A stretch of 64,000 bases of DNA from Proteiniphilum acetatigenes DSM 18083. Its GTDB lineage: Bacteria > Bacteroidota > Bacteroidia > Bacteroidales > Dysgonomonadaceae. Shown here in pieces: positions 39,195 to 58,489 of this stretch. The stretch spans positions 62,001-126,000 of the forward strand of contig NZ_KB905702.1 in the NCBI RefSeq assembly GCF_000380985.1. The letters run 5' to 3'. The notes beneath the pieces were generated by a model. It was not told where the DNA came from, did not search any database, and saw only the letters and a program-made list of their open reading frames with translations. Every line of letters starts with the position of its first letter. The first letter of the stretch is position 1. Both the position numbers and the translations under genes were made by a program.

Positions 39195-39240
39195 TTCGAC
39201 TCTCTTTTTACCCGAAAGAGATCAAAAAGTGTACACATCT

Positions 39241-39449
39241 GGCAGGTCTTCTGACTTACTCCTCCTTTTGCGCTTCCTTCCCGGCCTTTCATCAACCCTC
39301 TCACAGGAAAGAGTTCAAGCCAGTGGATGTGAGTATTGCGCAAAGGTTTTATGCAGAGCTTACAGCAGCGGGAACTGTTGCCGACTTTCACGGCATTCCC
39401 TTTTCATTTTATTCGCAGCGGTTTTTCAGGTTGTGCGAATAAAAACCAA
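39241..39449 (-). promoter_or_regulatory. cobalamin riboswitch 1 (upstream of nrdD-nrdG)
   Basis: On the minus strand, a TTTTATTCGC/GCGAATAAAA hairpin precedes AAAAGGGAAT, then CAACAGTTCCCGCTGCTGTA, a CCACTGG box, and GAGTAAGTCAGAAGACCTGC at the 3' end. These are the conserved core blocks of the AdoCbl riboswitch in the right order. B12 binding normally shuts off the downstream gene. Confidence 0.93.
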
Positions 39450-39457
39450 ATACAAAA

Positions 39458-39491
39458 CAAAGATAAGTTATCTTCAATAATAAAGTGCAAA
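39458..39491 (-). promoter_or_regulatory. promoter of the nrdD riboswitch transcript
   Basis: Minus strand TTTG (39491-39488), 22 bases, TATCTTTG (39465-39458), directly before the riboswitch. Confidence 0.65.
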
Positions 39492-40079: not shown

Positions 40080-42089
40080 TTATATCTGTTTCCATTTTCC
40101 TGCTTTGAGATCATCGATTGTCGGATTGTAAGCATTATTTCTGACCGTCCATGTGGATTCCCCTTCCAACACTTTTCCGAGAGCGTTTTTGAGCCCTTCA
40201 AAGGATGTCAGAGCTTTTTGTGCTTGTATTGTCACATTGCCTCCGATATAGGTAAGTGCTGAAAATGTATCCAGATCTTTGATATAATTATTTTCCGGAT
40301 TGGAGAAAGCAGTAAGCTGGAAATAATCACCCACATAAGCCAATTGAGGGAACGATATGTTGGCCACGATCGAGCTGTTACCACTTGTCTGTATTACAAA
40401 ATAAGTTTCGGAGCGGGTCAACGAAGGAAATGACAAATCGACAGGAGTTGGTTGACCCTGGGAATAGTATGAAAAAGACCCGACTTTTTCTAATAACGGA
40501 AATTTAAATTCTATTCCGAACTGGTTATTGAACATAAATCTTGCACCTACCTCTTTTAATGCAGGCATTTTATAACTCATGCAATTGGAACCATACTCGA
40601 AGATCAGATCGTTTTGTACGCTTTCTATTTCATTCAATTCAACAGTTGTAATGTTATTGCATCCCGATATATGTAAACCTTTCAGGTGTTTTATACCCGA
40701 AAGATCAGGGAGTTTTTTGATTGTCAGATACCAGAGAGCAATCTCCGTTTCACAGGTTTCACCCGCTATGAGCTTTACAGGATTCGATGTTCCCTGAAAA
40801 ATCAGTTTTCCTGCTTTCAATTTAGTTAAATCCAATTCCGATACGTTCGGCAGGTTATTCAGGGTGAGTTCCCCGACATCTGCCAACGCAGGTAAAATAT
40901 CGCTTAAGCTTGTCGCTTCGTTATTGGATATCTGTAACTTACCACCCACCATAGCCAGCGACTTTATCCAGTCAGCAGCGGTGATTTTCGGAAAACCGGG
41001 CATAGTGAAATCACCTCCTATGGCAATTAAAGAGGAAAAATCGATGGTAGTGATATTGTCGTTCGTCACTGAAAGATTCAGCCTGGTTTCAATCTTTTCA
41101 AGAGAAGGGAATTCAATCTTTACCAGTTTACTAAGCGATGCTATATTCAATTCACGTACACCTGACAGTTTCGGGAAAACAGTTTCGGTTACTTCTTTCC
41201 AGTTAGTGATATCCAGTTTTCCGCCGATTTTCTCCAATGCCGGAAAGTCAATTACTTTTAGCTTATTGGTATTCCAACCGGCTTGGAATGTCACATTATT
41301 CACCACACTTTTCAGTTTGGGGAACTCCATTACCAAAAGCGAATCCAGGTTTATAAATGATATTTCATCATCCACCTTAAGCAATTCGGGGAACTGTATT
41401 GTTTCCACTCTACTCTGTTTGATAATTAATCCCAGCATGACGGCCTGTAGTCTGGGGAACGTCACGGTTTTCAGCTTCTTGTTCTGGTCTATTTGCAGCG
41501 ATCCGATCAACTCCAGATTTTCCAGTCCGGTGAGGTCGTCGCCGGCATAAGTAGGATTAATTGTAAGGTCGTATTTCACTTTTTTAAGTTTCTCCAGTCC
41601 CTCCAGCGAGTAGATGGAATCCTGTCCTGTAACGGCACCAATGGTAAGGCTTCCGTTCAATTCACTGAGCCCGAGTGCTGCAAAAGCATCGACATCGGCT
41701 TGTGTAAGCAATACCACATCGCCATCTTTCGAAACCGCATTGTGTTCGACTCGATAGACATAGGTCTGTGTATTGCCGTTGTAGGATGTAACGGTAAATG
41801 TCTGTTCATTGTCCCAATCGGTAATGGATGACGGATCGGGAGAGATGGTCGCCAGTTCGCTGATGGTGACGGTGGCTGTTGCTCCTTCGAGCGATAAATT
41901 CGCGGGAACGGTTACCACCAGATTTCCTTCTGAGATGGCCGCATAGAAAGTCTGCTCACCCTGTTTTAATTGGAACGATACTATATTATTATCATTACCC
42001 GAGAACGCGCTATTGTCATCGTCACATGCAATCATAAAGAGACCGGCAAACAGCGATATGATGATTGTTTTTATATTGATATTGTTCAT
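40080..42089 (-). CDS. leucine-rich surface lipoprotein B (B12 operon)
   Basis: A 669-residue lipoprotein with lipobox FMIAC (Cys22) followed by DDDN, an acidic run that favours surface display in Bacteroidota. Residues about 30-115 form an Ig-like domain (IVSFQLKQGEQTFYAAI ... FTVTSYNGNTQTYVYRV), similar to DUF5018-type N-terminal domains. The rest is a long array of about 22-residue units with the pattern 'L--I-FP-L--I-G-L-I', as in Receptor-L or LRR solenoids. The C-terminus (NNAYNPTIDDLKAGKW) matches that of the upstream paralogue. Function is unknown. It is the last gene of the riboswitch-controlled operon, 14 bases after its paralogue, which suggests a part in capture of B12 or its carriers. 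Confidence 0.8.
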   Translation of the reverse strand: MNNINIKTIIISLFAGLFMIACDDDNSAFSGNDNNIVSFQLKQGEQTFYAAISEGNLVVTVPANLSLEGATATVTISELATISPDPSSITDWDNEQTFTVTSYNGNTQTYVYRVEHNAVSKDGDVVLLTQADVDAFAALGLSELNGSLTIGAVTGQDSIYSLEGLEKLKKVKYDLTINPTYAGDDLTGLENLELIGSLQIDQNKKLKTVTFPRLQAVMLGLIIKQSRVETIQFPELLKVDDEISFINLDSLLVMEFPKLKSVVNNVTFQAGWNTNKLKVIDFPALEKIGGKLDITNWKEVTETVFPKLSGVRELNIASLSKLVKIEFPSLEKIETRLNLSVTNDNITTIDFSSLIAIGGDFTMPGFPKITAADWIKSLAMVGGKLQISNNEATSLSDILPALADVGELTLNNLPNVSELDLTKLKAGKLIFQGTSNPVKLIAGETCETEIALWYLTIKKLPDLSGIKHLKGLHISGCNNITTVELNEIESVQNDLIFEYGSNCMSYKMPALKEVGARFMFNNQFGIEFKFPLLEKVGSFSYYSQGQPTPVDLSFPSLTRSETYFVIQTSGNSSIVANISFPQLAYVGDYFQLTAFSNPENNYIKDLDTFSALTYIGGNVTIQAQKALTSFEGLKNALGKVLEGESTWTVRNNAYNPTIDDLKAGKWKQI

Positions 42090-42103
42090 ACGATTATTCT
42101 ATT

Positions 42104-44224
42104 TTACGGTTTCACCCATTTGTTATCCAACAGATCCTGATAGGCAGGATTATAGCCATTGTTTTCAACACTCCAGGCGCTTGCCGGAAACGATGATATG
42201 GCTTTACTGAATCCTTCATACGAGATTAATCCCTGATGCCTCACAATTTCGACACCTTTTACCGATTCGAGCGCTGAAAATCCATCAAGATCCGTAAACC
42301 GTTCATTTATATAGTTATCACCTCCATCCAGATAAGGTTTAAGTGTTATTTTTCCGCCTATGGTTTTTAACATGGGGAAAGATAAACTCTTCATGTCGCG
42401 ACCGTAAGGGTCCCACTGAGACGTTGACGCATACCCCGTTCCTATTATAAAATTACCTGCAACATAGGTTAAGGCAGGGAGTTCCAGCGCAATTATATCT
42501 CTTGAGGCGGTGGTAATCCTGAAGTCGCCGCCCACCGATTTCAGTTTTGGAATAATGAACACCGAATCCTCTACCGATACAGAAGAAAGGTGATTGATAA
42601 CGAAGTTACCGCCTACTTCTTCCAGATCGGGCAGGCTGAGCCCAATCAGATTGTTATTAGGAATATGAAATCCTTTGTTTATTTTTCGTATACCTTTCAT
42701 CTCCAGATTTCTGAGATTGGATATATAGTTGCCGTATGATATGGAGTCTATTTCATGGAAACCCTCAAAAACAGGAGATACCCAGTCATACGTTCTACCG
42801 TTTTGGGTATCGAAACTTACTATTCCATGAAACACGTCGTCACCGATAATTTTGATACCGTTTACCGCATCCCGTTCAATCGACAGTTCTCCAAGGTTCA
42901 TCCCTTTTATATTGATTTCAGCGAAATTGCGATCCACATTCTGGTTGTAGATGGTTAACTTTTCAATTCGCCTGATTGAGGAAGGAATTGAAAGGGTCCT
43001 CATTTCAGACATTTCCATAAGCCGGAGTTCGCCTTCTATCTTTTCCAGTTTGTCAAATCCTGTTGAAATACCGGAAAGCGTAGTGTTCTGGATGCTAAGA
43101 TTTGTAATAGCTGTAAGTTTGGGAAAATGAAGCAGCCCCAATTCGGCTCCTTTGACCTCGACCGTATTTGCCTGACGCATTTCGGGGAAGCTCAATTCCG
43201 ACAATTTTGAAACATCAGGAAGAGTAATAGTACCTGTCGATACTTCCAGTTTAGGAGCGTCGATAAAGGCAAGCACAGTAAGCCAGTTTAATTTCATATC
43301 GCCTACTTCTTTCAATTCGGGGAGTAATATCTTTGTCAGCGACGGAAGGAAATAAACCACTATGCTTTCGGCTTTCTCCAACGATGGAAATGCTACTGAA
43401 GTAATCATCGCATCCCTGTCTTCCAAATGAATACTTTGCACCTGTTTCAGGTTGGGAAAACTGATACCGCCCAACGGGCATTGCAGTGTGATGGCCTTTG
43501 TTACATTCTCCAGCCGGCTAAATATTACCTCTCCAAGCTTCGAATTTTTAAAGAATACCGATCCGGCCGACTGTAATTTAGGGAAGCTCACTTTTTCGAT
43601 ATTGGCTGCGGTTGAATATATGTCGCCGCCAACTTTTTCCAGAGCGTCGAATCCGGCTAATTCGGCCGCGGCAAAATTGGGATGGATCGTCAATGAGTAA
43701 GTGATTTCTTTGAGTTTTGCCAGTGGCGCCAGGTCCCTGATAGAGTCGGTGCCGGTGGCACTGCCGATAATCAGGCTTCCTCCGATGGCAGTAATATCGC
43801 TTGCTCCGAAAGCATCCACATCGGCTTGTGTAGCCAGTATTACCGTTTCGTTCGCATCGATATGGCTCCGGATGACGCTGTATTTATAGCTTAGCTGCGT
43901 TGTACCGTCAAAAGCGGTTACGGCAAACAGTATTTCCTCGTCCCATTGGGTAATGTCCGCGGGATCGGGGTATATCGAAGCATTTTCACTCAATTTCACC
44001 GTCGCCGTGGCGCCTTTCAGCGATATACCTTCCGGTACCTTTACGGTGATGAGCCGCTCAGTAATTTCGGCATTAAAAACCGTCTCGCCTTGTCGTAAAC
44101 TGAAAGACGTGATATAGCTGTCGGTACCTGTAAACGGATCATGTTCGTTAGTACAAGCCAACAAAACCAACAGGCTCACCATCAGCATGAAAAAGATATT
44201 TTTATAACTATATATTACATTCAT
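42104..44224 (-). CDS. leucine-rich surface lipoprotein A (B12 operon)
   Basis: A 706-residue paralogue of the next gene. The lipobox is VLLAC (Cys24), then TNEHD. The same Ig-like N-terminal domain (about 35-125, SFSLRQGETVFNAEI, then FAVTAFDGTTQLSYKYSV) leads to a solenoid of short repeats of 'FP-L' type (FPKLQSAGSVFFKNSKLGEV, FPSLEKAESIVVYFLPSLTK). It ends ENNGYNPAYQDLLDNKW. The tandem pair points to gene duplication with divergence of the repeat faces, as expected of binding proteins. No B12-binding residue can be assigned. Confidence 0.8.
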   Translation of the reverse strand: MNVIYSYKNIFFMLMVSLLVLLACTNEHDPFTGTDSYITSFSLRQGETVFNAEITERLITVKVPEGISLKGATATVKLSENASIYPDPADITQWDEEILFAVTAFDGTTQLSYKYSVIRSHIDANETVILATQADVDAFGASDITAIGGSLIIGSATGTDSIRDLAPLAKLKEITYSLTIHPNFAAAELAGFDALEKVGGDIYSTAANIEKVSFPKLQSAGSVFFKNSKLGEVIFSRLENVTKAITLQCPLGGISFPNLKQVQSIHLEDRDAMITSVAFPSLEKAESIVVYFLPSLTKILLPELKEVGDMKLNWLTVLAFIDAPKLEVSTGTITLPDVSKLSELSFPEMRQANTVEVKGAELGLLHFPKLTAITNLSIQNTTLSGISTGFDKLEKIEGELRLMEMSEMRTLSIPSSIRRIEKLTIYNQNVDRNFAEINIKGMNLGELSIERDAVNGIKIIGDDVFHGIVSFDTQNGRTYDWVSPVFEGFHEIDSISYGNYISNLRNLEMKGIRKINKGFHIPNNNLIGLSLPDLEEVGGNFVINHLSSVSVEDSVFIIPKLKSVGGDFRITTASRDIIALELPALTYVAGNFIIGTGYASTSQWDPYGRDMKSLSFPMLKTIGGKITLKPYLDGGDNYINERFTDLDGFSALESVKGVEIVRHQGLISYEGFSKAISSFPASAWSVENNGYNPAYQDLLDNKWVKP

Positions 44225-44243
44225 TACTTTATGCGTTTGATTG

Positions 44244-45929
44244 TTAGAAATTCAAGTTAGTAGGACATCCCGGTTCGGTAGATATCTCTCCAACCGCATT
44301 GCCTTTGGCCGCCATACCTGTATGTACTTTCACGAAGTCGATGTGTGTCAGGTTTGCCGGTGATCCGTCGACCTGGATTGCATCTTCGATCCAGAAATGA
44401 CCGCCTGGGCGGGTGGGATCGGTATTGTAGTTATCCACATATCCCCAGGGGAAATCTCTGGCATAGACTATGCCTGTGGAAGAATCAATATTTGAAGCAA
44501 GACAGGTTCCTACCACCGTATAATAGTCCTCCTCGATAAACATCGGGAAGTAGTAGTCCTGCGTATGATACCCGTTATAATCTACCGAGTTGGAACCGCC
44601 GAAGTTGTCTGTCCACAATACATCCGCTTTTTTCTTGTTAGGCTTATAATAAGTAAGCGCGTAACGTTGACGGGTTTCAGGTTTTCCTGTCTCGCTGCCT
44701 TTCAGTTCATACCATGTGTCGTCAGGTAACCCGTTCCCGTTTACATCCTGCATCACCCATACAATTCCGGGTTCGCTCCATCCGGCAAAAGCATTACCAC
44801 CAATAAACAAATCGGCTTTCTCTTCCACATTCCTGACGCTATGGTCGAATCCGACGATCCAATAACCGCCGTAAGCGCCTATATAAGGAGCGCCACCTCT
44901 GTTCAAAGCATTTTGCAGATCATTTAAAGCACGGGCTTTTGTCGACCCGATCTGGTAGTTAATAAACTGTCCGGGGGCAGGGACATAATCGAAGGCCAGG
45001 GCCGCGGTAGCTTTGCTGCTTTCGGTCTTTTCCCGGAAGTAGGTACCTTCGGGTTTTGTACAGGTTACTTCAACCTCAGCTTTTGCCTGTGTGCTTTGCT
45101 CGGTAACCGTAATAAGATAAACCCCTTCGGTTGACGGAGTAAAGGTAAAAAACTCCGAAGTTTCGGATTGGGTCGCCCCGTCCACCGTCCACTGGAATGT
45201 TCCGGGATCTTCTATATTGCAAATAACAGGGGCCAGTACCAGGCTTTTTCCGACAGGAACCGCCATTTTGCGTAATTCATCTTTGTTGGTCACCGTCCGG
45301 TAATGCCCGTCATCAAAAAACAATTCCGGTTCGGGAACAGGCAGGTTTGTGATGGTGAATACTTTCAGGTCGGAGCCGTCTTCGGTCTCCACTTTTAATG
45401 AAAGCGTCTGGGATCCCAGGGAGACTTCGTTAAACACATACGTCTTTTCTTCCGATACGACCACACCGTTCAGCTTCCATACATAGTGCGCTTCATCGGC
45501 ATACAGCACCTCGGCGGTAAGTTCGTTATCTTTCCCTGCATAAGCAATGAACATGGACGGCATATCGATCTCCGGAGGGAGTTTATCGAGTACGCTCACT
45601 TTCACCTGTTGTTCGGCATGTCCGTTCTCTGCATCGACACGGAAATTAACGAAGTATTCGCCCGCATATTCACCCTCGAACTCGAACTCCTGTTCGGTTG
45701 AAATGATTTTACCATCCAATTTCCATGAATAAATGGGTTTAACGGCATTCTCCACCGTGGCGGACAAGAGAACCGATTTCCCTTTCTTTACTTTATACTC
45801 CCCGTTTTCCGCCTCAATTTTAATGACCGGGGCTCCCAGATCTATCACAGGGTCATCTTTTGAACAAGAGATGATAAAAACTGATAGAAGAGTAAGAAGT
45901 AACAGCTTCGTTCTTGTTGTTTTAATCAT
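44244..45929 (-). CDS. PKD-repeat surface lipoprotein (B12 operon)
   Basis: A 561-residue lipoprotein with lipobox FIISC (Cys22), then SKDD. About three PKD/Ig-like repeats of 80-90 residues follow (33-115, 117-200, 205-295), each with the 'W-L-DG' core (YSWKLDGKIIS, YVWKLNGVVVS, FQWTVDGATQS). The C-terminal domain (about 300-561) has AYGGYWIVGFDHSVRN, NGNGLPDDTWYELKGSETGK and GHFWIEDAIQVDG, a pattern seen in 'cell surface proteins' of Bacteroidota. Known Bacteroides B12 loci contain extra B12-binding lipoproteins (BtuH) beside BtuB and BtuG; this gene could play that role, but I cannot show homology. Confidence 0.8.
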   Translation of the reverse strand: MIKTTRTKLLLLTLLSVFIISCSKDDPVIDLGAPVIKIEAENGEYKVKKGKSVLLSATVENAVKPIYSWKLDGKIISTEQEFEFEGEYAGEYFVNFRVDAENGHAEQQVKVSVLDKLPPEIDMPSMFIAYAGKDNELTAEVLYADEAHYVWKLNGVVVSEEKTYVFNEVSLGSQTLSLKVETEDGSDLKVFTITNLPVPEPELFFDDGHYRTVTNKDELRKMAVPVGKSLVLAPVICNIEDPGTFQWTVDGATQSETSEFFTFTPSTEGVYLITVTEQSTQAKAEVEVTCTKPEGTYFREKTESSKATAALAFDYVPAPGQFINYQIGSTKARALNDLQNALNRGGAPYIGAYGGYWIVGFDHSVRNVEEKADLFIGGNAFAGWSEPGIVWVMQDVNGNGLPDDTWYELKGSETGKPETRQRYALTYYKPNKKKADVLWTDNFGGSNSVDYNGYHTQDYYFPMFIEEDYYTVVGTCLASNIDSSTGIVYARDFPWGYVDNYNTDPTRPGGHFWIEDAIQVDGSPANLTHIDFVKVHTGMAAKGNAVGEISTEPGCPTNLNF

Positions 45930-49208: not shown

Positions 49209-49372
49209 TTTGCCGGTTATTATTTGCTAATAAACAGCTTTGCGCGAGAAATGCACACATGAAGAGGAGTATCTCCTTCCGGAATGAAAAATGATCGAGA
49301 ATGGATAAAGGAATGATTCCCCCTGATGTAGTAAGCTCTAATCCCCGAAAGCTATAAACATATGTTGATTCT

Positions 49373-49554
49373 GGCAGGTCTTCTGACTTACTCCCGTGTC
49401 TGGACGCCTTCCCACCCCGATAAATCGGGGCAGTGGCAATTGAGGTATTTGTCCAGCACGTAAGCGGAGCTTACAGCAGCGGGTCTGTTCAGGATTTGCA
49501 CCTGATTCCCTTTTCATCATTCATTTCGAAGCCGTTTGAAATGAATAACACCAA
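49373..49554 (-). promoter_or_regulatory. cobalamin riboswitch 2 (upstream of the B12 uptake operon)
   Basis: On the minus strand: TTGGTGTT, an ATTCATTTC/GAAATGAAT hairpin, AAAAGGGAATCAGGTGCAAA, CAGACCCGCTGCTGTAAGC, the box GCCACTG, GGGAAGGC and AGTAAGTCAGAAGACCTGCC. All core blocks of the AdoCbl class are present. A variable stem is formed by the perfect palindrome CCCCGATAAATCGGGG (49415-49430), a repeat also found elsewhere in this window. Confidence 0.95.
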
Positions 49555-49563
49555 AATTCAGGG

Positions 49564-49596
49564 CAAAGATAGGTTATTCTTTTGGGATTTATTCAA
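49564..49596 (-). promoter_or_regulatory. promoter of the B12 uptake operon
   Basis: Minus strand TTG (49596-49594), 22 bases, TATCTTTG (49571-49564), ten bases before riboswitch 2. Layout and sequence match the promoter of riboswitch 1. Confidence 0.65.
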
Positions 49597-57956: not shown

Positions 57957-58116
57957 GGGATAAATAAATATCGGATTGAATTTTTTACTTCTGAACTATT
58001 TTTTAAGTCAGATAGATAGTCAATAAGTTTTCTTATTCTACAACTTAATAAAAAAATAGTTTAGCTTTATTGCACATTTTCTTTATAAAACCCGAAAGAA
58101 AATTATTTCTTCTTTT

Positions 58117-58288
58117 GGCAGGTCTTCTGACTTACTCTGTTTCCGGCGGCCTTCCCTTTACATATAATAAAAGTGGCAAAAAGAATTGCAGAAACACTTG
58201 AATGAGTTTACAGCAGCGGGCTCTGTTCAGGATTTGCACCTGATTCCCTTTTCATTCCGGTCACGAGAACTCATGATCGGAACACCAA
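58117..58288 (-). promoter_or_regulatory. cobalamin riboswitch 3 (upstream of nrdHIE-nrdF)
   Basis: On the minus strand: TTGGTGTT, a TCCG/CGGA-type stem, AAAAGGGAATCAGGTGCAAA, CAGAGCCCGCTGCTGTAAAC, a TTGCCACTT box, GGGAAGGC and GAGTAAGTCAGAAGACCTGC. The core blocks and order match riboswitches 1 and 2. The nrdH ATG is 222 bases downstream. Confidence 0.94.
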
Positions 58289-58489
58289 AATTTCCAACAA
58301 ATATCGAATAAAAAAACGGAATAGATACTTAAAACGGAATATATTTTTCTATGGAATATCGATAAAGTTTATCAAAATGGAAAATTTTTCAATTTAAAAT
58401 TGTAGTAAAGTTTTCCATTTTTAAAATTACAGAACGATTTTATTTTTCTAAATCTTCTGTTTTGTAGAAGTTGTGGATCGTTTTCTGAG

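Follow-up and report, generated by a model that had tools for sequence, protein, structure and literature searches.

What are the three lipoproteins encoded behind btuB and a btuG-like gene in a vitamin B12 operon of Proteiniphilum acetatigenes DSM 18083, and what do the last two of them, a tandem pair of leucine-rich repeat (LRR) proteins, do there? The operon lies in a stretch of 64,000 nucleotides (contig NZ_KB905702.1, positions 62,001 to 126,000), which we refer to as the window. A first-pass annotation had left all three proteins unassigned, had set the LRR pair outside the known B12 scheme and had proposed new cobalamin-capture factors. By homology we identify the first, a PKD-repeat protein, as BtuH, and the LRR pair as tandem, diverged members of the BtuL family. 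BtuL received its name in December 2025, in work on a single species, Bacteroides thetaiotaomicron (PMC12751083).

Identity of the three lipoproteins

The LRR pair was placed through operon 2 of B. thetaiotaomicron, which is published as BtuJ2 (BT_1957), BtuH2 (BT_1956), BtuL (BT_1955), BtuG2 (BT_1954), BtuB2, BtuF, BtuC, BtuD and BtuX (PMC12751083). Four genomes of our set (loci L183-L186) have the order riboswitch, DUF4465 lipoprotein, BtuH, LRR lipoprotein, BtuG and BtuB, followed by a periplasmic binding protein, a FecCD permease, an ABC ATPase and a DUF2284 protein (the domain order is from Pfam run on L183 only), which agrees with the order J-H-L-G-B-F-C-D-X of operon 2. The BtuH of these loci is 100% identical over 482 residues to 7BIZ, the entry of BtuH2 (PMC8941943), and the BtuG of L183 is 100% identical over 366 residues to 8BMX, which is BtuG2 with cyanocobalamin (BtuG2-CNCbl) according to its depositors. 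Therefore the LRR gene between the btuH2- and btuG2-identical genes occupies the position of BtuL. It may be noted that BT_1955 was thus recognised via its flanking genes and not fetched by name. The window LRR proteins align end to end with the product of this gene (27% identity, E 1e-50, and 24%, E 2e-46), so that on sequence grounds the pair belongs to a family published in 2025 and not outside the B12 scheme. BtuK was also considered for the pair, as BtuK1 and BtuK2 too are a neighbouring lipoprotein pair; this identity was replaced by BtuL after the btuH2 and btuG2 flanks had been matched, and BtuK may still be a distant relative.

The likeness to BtuL covers the end-to-end homology, the lipoprotein character, the position directly behind btuH and the cobalamin riboswitch. 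Yet BtuL is a single copy lying between btuH and btuG, whereas the window has two diverged copies, 24-27% identical to it, which close the operon. Also, the BtuL operon includes BtuJ2, whereas Pfam gave no match to DUF4465, the domain of BtuJ, in the LRR pair and none was found in the whole window genome.

The PKD lipoprotein (PKD_3, E 5.5e-32 in Pfam) was compared with BtuH as the first-pass annotation had suggested, and phmmer against the PDB matched BtuH2 (7biz_A) with an E value of 9.8e-82 across residues 105-552, and 8blw_B with 1.4e-49. The protein thus left unassigned is, judged by this homology, BtuH: it has the PKD/immunoglobulin (Ig) stalk, and its C-terminal domain is homologous to that of BtuH2. 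The contacts published for BtuH2 (Q333, N399, F401, H476, Y510, W511, W577 and L578) are found at the same numbers in a 593-residue homologue identical to 7BIZ. The window BtuH retains four of these eight positions (Q321, N379, F381 and H455), whereas Tyr510, Trp511, Trp577 and Leu578 of BtuH2 are Ile, Val, Ala and Val. Among 74 BtuH-domain proteins, near-copies and several fragments included, all eight BtuH2 letters are present in 22 and the Tyr, Trp and Trp in 28, while 10, that of the window included, have no aromatic residue at 511 or 577, mostly Glu and Ala; the remainder are mixed. Weaker or different cobamide binding by the window BtuH is possible from these replacements.

Pfam finds Recep_L_domain LRRs in both proteins of the pair (E 1.1e-07 and 1.4e-10) and an N-terminus that is DUF5018-like, under the DUF5018 cut-off. 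In the AlphaFold2 models (mean predicted local distance difference test, pLDDT, in Table 1) each copy shows a signal helix at the N-terminus, the strands of an Ig-like domain and many short strands in a row, as in a solenoid; BtuL is thus predicted to be an Ig-stalked leucine-rich solenoid in both copies. Both were folded and the copy 2 model was searched, giving LRR proteins at the top of the list; such matches indicate the LRR class only, as repeats readily give high Z values, and no function can be read from them. In Foldseek the template modelling scores by query length were about 0.1-0.3. The Ig-like N-terminal domain matches, in sequence and in fold, an Ig-like domain of the surface glycan-binding protein (SGBP) of the levan utilisome (8A9Y, 8AA2), whose head is a glycan-binding domain in contrast to the LRR solenoid of the pair. 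The N-terminal domain of the levan SGBP forms a rigid unit with SusC, which is larger than the classic transporters (PMC7618045). By analogy, BtuL might dock on BtuB as the SGBP does on SusC, which is a guess.

The five genes lie on a common strand with gaps of 7, 41, 19 and 14 bases from btuB to the second LRR gene, and therefore they read as one operon, btuB-btuG-btuH-btuL-btuL, under the predicted riboswitch at its head (Table 1). BtuB matches the TonB-B12 model with an E value of 6.6e-22, under the curated cut-off of the model, its Plug domain being found by Pfam. BtuG is matched by Pfam DUF5074 (E 7.4e-17) and, in phmmer, by 8blw_B (E 7.3e-39), an entry deposited as B. thetaiotaomicron BtuB1G1. 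By sequence the two are the transporter and its lid, a TonB-dependent transporter with a DUF5074 propeller lipoprotein as in the B. thetaiotaomicron BtuBG complexes; unlike there, the window operon is without ABC transporter genes. The riboswitch, the open reading frames (ORFs) and a signal peptide with Cys in each product bear out three surface lipoproteins in a B12 operon, as far as sequence can tell. Acidic residues past the lipobox Cys are likewise present in all three: CSKDDP in BtuH, CTNEHD in copy 1, the weakest motif, and CDDDNS in copy 2 (signal peptides and motifs called by eye). Neither of the two LRR motifs is an exact match to the CS(D/E)2 export motif described in PMC6222051, in which such acidic motifs link packing into vesicles to exposure on the surface.

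Table 1. The B12 operon in the window (all window coordinates) and DUF4988 fusions in other B12 operons (coordinates within each locus)
Feature	Position	Strand	Evidence
Cobalamin riboswitch, operon head	49356..49570	-	RF00174, 104.2 bits, E 5.1e-25
btuB, TonB-dependent cobamide transporter, 679 amino acids	47169..49208	-	TIGR01779 and Plug domain
btuG, surface beta-propeller B12-binding lipoprotein, 396 amino acids	45971..47161	-	DUF5074 and 8blw_B match
btuH, BtuH2 type: PKD/Ig stalk and C-terminal B12-binding domain, 561 amino acids	44244..45929	-	7biz_A match
btuL homologue copy 1, Ig-like N-domain and LRR solenoid lipoprotein, 706 amino acids	42104..44224	-	homology, locus, pLDDT 87.8
btuL homologue copy 2, architecture as copy 1, 669 amino acids	40080..42089	-	homology, locus, pLDDT 88.1, LRR fold
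DUF4988 fusions	L076 3184-5298; L136 4146-6272; L140 7143-8609; L142 7842-9506; L143 5182-6900; L147 7662-9140		L147 under DUF4988 cut-off

Linkage to btuH, duplication and spread

Homologues were gathered by LRR searches into a set of 34 loci with 52 LRR ORFs or pieces, which tests whether an LRR gene implies btuH and not the converse. The set comprises the window, 11 loci in 10 relatives, 3 from an order search, 3 named loci (Pedobacter sp. MC2016-24, Niastella yeongjuensis and a Prevotellaceae metagenome-assembled genome) and 16 from the search of one family. In all 34, the first LRR gene comes immediately after btuH; clustering leaves 25-26 distinct loci, as L187, whose btuH is split into two ORFs, was set apart. 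A cobalamin riboswitch is present at 32 of the 34 loci (for L045 it is located in the adjoining L044), and the two loci without one (L053 and L192) are truncated at contig ends. The recurrence of the btuH-LRR order is far beyond chance, and the B12 link of the pair is strong. The orthologues therefore also follow cobalamin riboswitches, as the first-pass annotation had asked, and its contrary case, set beforehand, of orthologues lying mostly in loci unrelated to B12 is not what the set contains.

The family is patchily distributed, full-length members being found in 4 of 393 genomes of the order, 16 of 399 genomes of one family and 2 of 395 genomes of the phylum. LRR proteins of the BspA and receptor L-domain type share the LRR solenoid, but away from btuH loci the matches are partial only, with surroundings inspected in part. 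Among 150 relatives searched, 45 have any LRR match; in 11 of these (own genome included) the matches are long, and in 34 they cover short parts only, in surroundings that were not inspected. In the order search, 9 of 13 genomes had LRR-only matches, and their annotated stretches (L079-L087) had no btuH or btuG, with one weak partial btuB-like receptor in L080. In the phylum search, the match in 3 of 5 genomes begins only at about model position 120 (surroundings not inspected). The named-genome search gave 8 loci, 6 of them strong, of which 3 were already in the set (G007, G039 and G028); the two weak ones (a Flavobacteriaceae metagenome-assembled genome and Dokdonia) had no B12 genes that we could see.

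The two window copies are 34% identical to each other (30% in a larger alignment). In a tree of 39 LRR proteins the first and second copies of each lineage fall in separate clades, and its starred branches require at least 3 changes of the first-copy label. Tandem BtuL pairs appear to have originated at least 3 times; alternatively there was one gain with two losses, and gene conversion could mimic part of the pattern. Divergence is faster in the LRR copies than in the other three proteins of these operons, BtuB, BtuG and BtuH, and the copies are the least conserved products: identities to the window for BtuB, BtuG, BtuH, copy 1 and copy 2 are 65, 72, 66, 46 and 38% in L040 and 74, 78, 59, 44 and 34% in L041. 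As to copy number, in the relative G012 two btuH genes enclose a row of four LRR genes in tandem (L045 1658-13631), and a second B12 locus nearby has one LRR gene (L044 4088-8963).

Near-identical stretches of 14 kb (99.7%) across two genera and of 18.7 kb (99.94%) across two families show recent transfer of the entire operon. Near-identical B12 operons in differing genera and families (L183-L186, L077, L195 and L196), with a tyrosine-integrase-like ORF beside the L183 copy, likewise look recently mobilised. These data bear on whether the pair is a passenger, that is, surface proteins that evolve fast, serve as decoys or phage shields and persist by linkage. The fast divergence is what this would predict, and G015, a near-identical relative, carries a DDE transposase insertion within copy 1, its copy 2 being intact (L039 10351-11576). 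Against that, linkage to btuH in every locus over several families, transfer of the operon as a unit and riboswitch control make a passenger improbable.

Role of the LRR pair

Published work has BtuG and BtuH of B. thetaiotaomicron binding B12. BtuL of that species showed no cobalamin binding in a Ni-column retention assay, B12 starvation strongly raised it in vesicles, and a btuL mutant released fewer vesicles early (PMC12751083). Since BtuL showed no B12 binding and its deletion lowers early vesicle release, the proposed role of the pair as new corrinoid-capture factors is unlikely. Direct binding does have the constant position in B12 operons in its favour; also, of the lipoproteins BtuK1 and BtuK2, one binds and one does not (PMC12751083), so a homologue that does bind is conceivable beside one that does not. 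Yet BtuL was negative in the retention assay, vesicles from a strain given back btuL alone failed to feed cells with cobalamin (PMC12751083), and no other proteins of the operon are as poorly conserved as the LRR pair. We therefore give direct corrinoid binding little chance.

We consider it somewhat better than an even chance that the pair are B12-starvation-induced, protein-binding or vesicle-promoting partners of BtuH, by a mechanism that we infer. When cobamide is scarce, the riboswitch would permit the making of all five proteins, and BtuH and BtuG would take up cobamide. The two large Ig-stalked solenoids would adjoin BtuH on the surface of the cell or of vesicles, there binding proteins or crowding the membrane, and may help vesicle formation or help BtuH to pass on its load without binding the vitamin themselves. 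The vitamin-binding vesicle cargo here, if any, would have to be BtuH or BtuG, because no DUF4465 domain was found in the genome. Nor was this domain found in 5 others of the 12 searched genomes with BtuL pairs (6 of 12 with the window genome G000; the 12 are not independent, as G000 and G015 are close kin, the latter with its first copy interrupted). With btuH beside BtuL in every locus, the constant partner of BtuL is therefore BtuH and not BtuJ. Other B12 operons encode fusions of a DUF4988 N-terminus with a DUF4465 (BtuJ) or a DUF5074 (BtuG-like) head (Table 1), and stalks and heads seem to be exchanged.

Several points weigh against this reading. Only vesicles with BtuJ fed cells, and those with BtuH or BtuG failed to (PMC12751083); this argues against a useful vesicle cargo of BtuH or BtuG in a genome that lacks BtuJ. 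At low B12, a mutant without btuJ2, btuH2, btuL and operons 1 and 3 outgrew the wild type (PMC12751083). The vesicle data come from one paper and one distant homologue (24-27% identity), and the interaction of BtuL with BtuH is putative. Also, BtuH is found in 92 and BtuL in only 4 of the same 393 order genomes. Full-length BtuH is present in 15 genomes (two pieced together from partial matches, and C-terminal-only BtuH loci being fetched only in part), of which 4 have an adjoining BtuL and 11 do not; therefore BtuH does not need BtuL. The hypergeometric probability of all 4 BtuL genomes falling within these 15 is 1.4e-6, uncorrected for kinship.

The pair may instead be a receptor at the surface whose ligand is some other macromolecule (a protein that carries B12, a vesicle or a partner cell), its two copies having different targets or forming a heteromer and BtuH taking over the vitamin; we regard this as a minority possibility, at about one chance in a few. 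The predicted fold is akin to protein-binding LRR and receptor L domains, and the diverged tandem pairs of at least 3 apparent origins would suit it. In copy 2 the solenoid diverges more (20-33% identity at residues 301-600 against 49-56% at residues 46-125, three orthologues), but in copy 1 the contrast is weak (39-55% at residues 501-600 against 30-62% at residues 46-125, six orthologues). Also, there is no candidate for the target, LRR folds are silent on the ligand, and PMC12751083 does not report BtuL as needed for uptake. A broader proposal, which we put forward as unlikely in its entirety and somewhat less probable than the receptor by itself, is that BtuL-type LRR lipoproteins, of scattered occurrence in the phylum, are a protein-recognising, BtuJ-independent arm of cobamide capture by BtuH. 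The protein partner of duplicated heteromeric pairs would be a foreign B12 carrier, a vesicle or a neighbouring cell, and the pairs would pass the vitamin to BtuH, which in the window lineage would be an aromatic-poor BtuH with a differing cobamide preference.

B12 setting of the genome and meaning of the family

Two other cobalamin riboswitches lie in the window. That at 39224-39465 precedes nrdD (anaerobic ribonucleotide reductase), and that at 58100-58304 precedes nrdA and nrdB with two small ORFs ahead of them, by eye thioredoxin-like and NrdI-like. The B12-dependent NrdJ is encoded elsewhere in the genome, which suggests a B12-controlled reductase swap, and such swapping of ribonucleotide reductases is a known pattern. 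A tRNA-Arg called by ARAGORN at 58218-58317 shares its strand and part of its span with the second riboswitch and is probably spurious. On contig 12 of the same genome a further riboswitch (L050 6138-13407) has as neighbours a CobN family gene, a TonB-plug gene and a CobB/CbiA-like gene, so that the genome may make or remodel cobamides besides importing them.

Among the papers listed by our searches of the open-licence literature, none links an LRR protein with these B12 loci, and the words 'leucine' and 'LRR' are absent from the main text of PMC12751083. New here are the BtuL fold prediction, the repeated tandem pairs, the tie to BtuH and not BtuJ, and the altered window BtuH. The predicted fold, the constant tie to btuH, the apparent repeated duplication and the independence from BtuJ turn a finding from a single species into a testable family. 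Also, the pairing in which BtuL makes vesicles and BtuJ fills them is called into question by the BtuL-pair genomes in which DUF4465 was not found.

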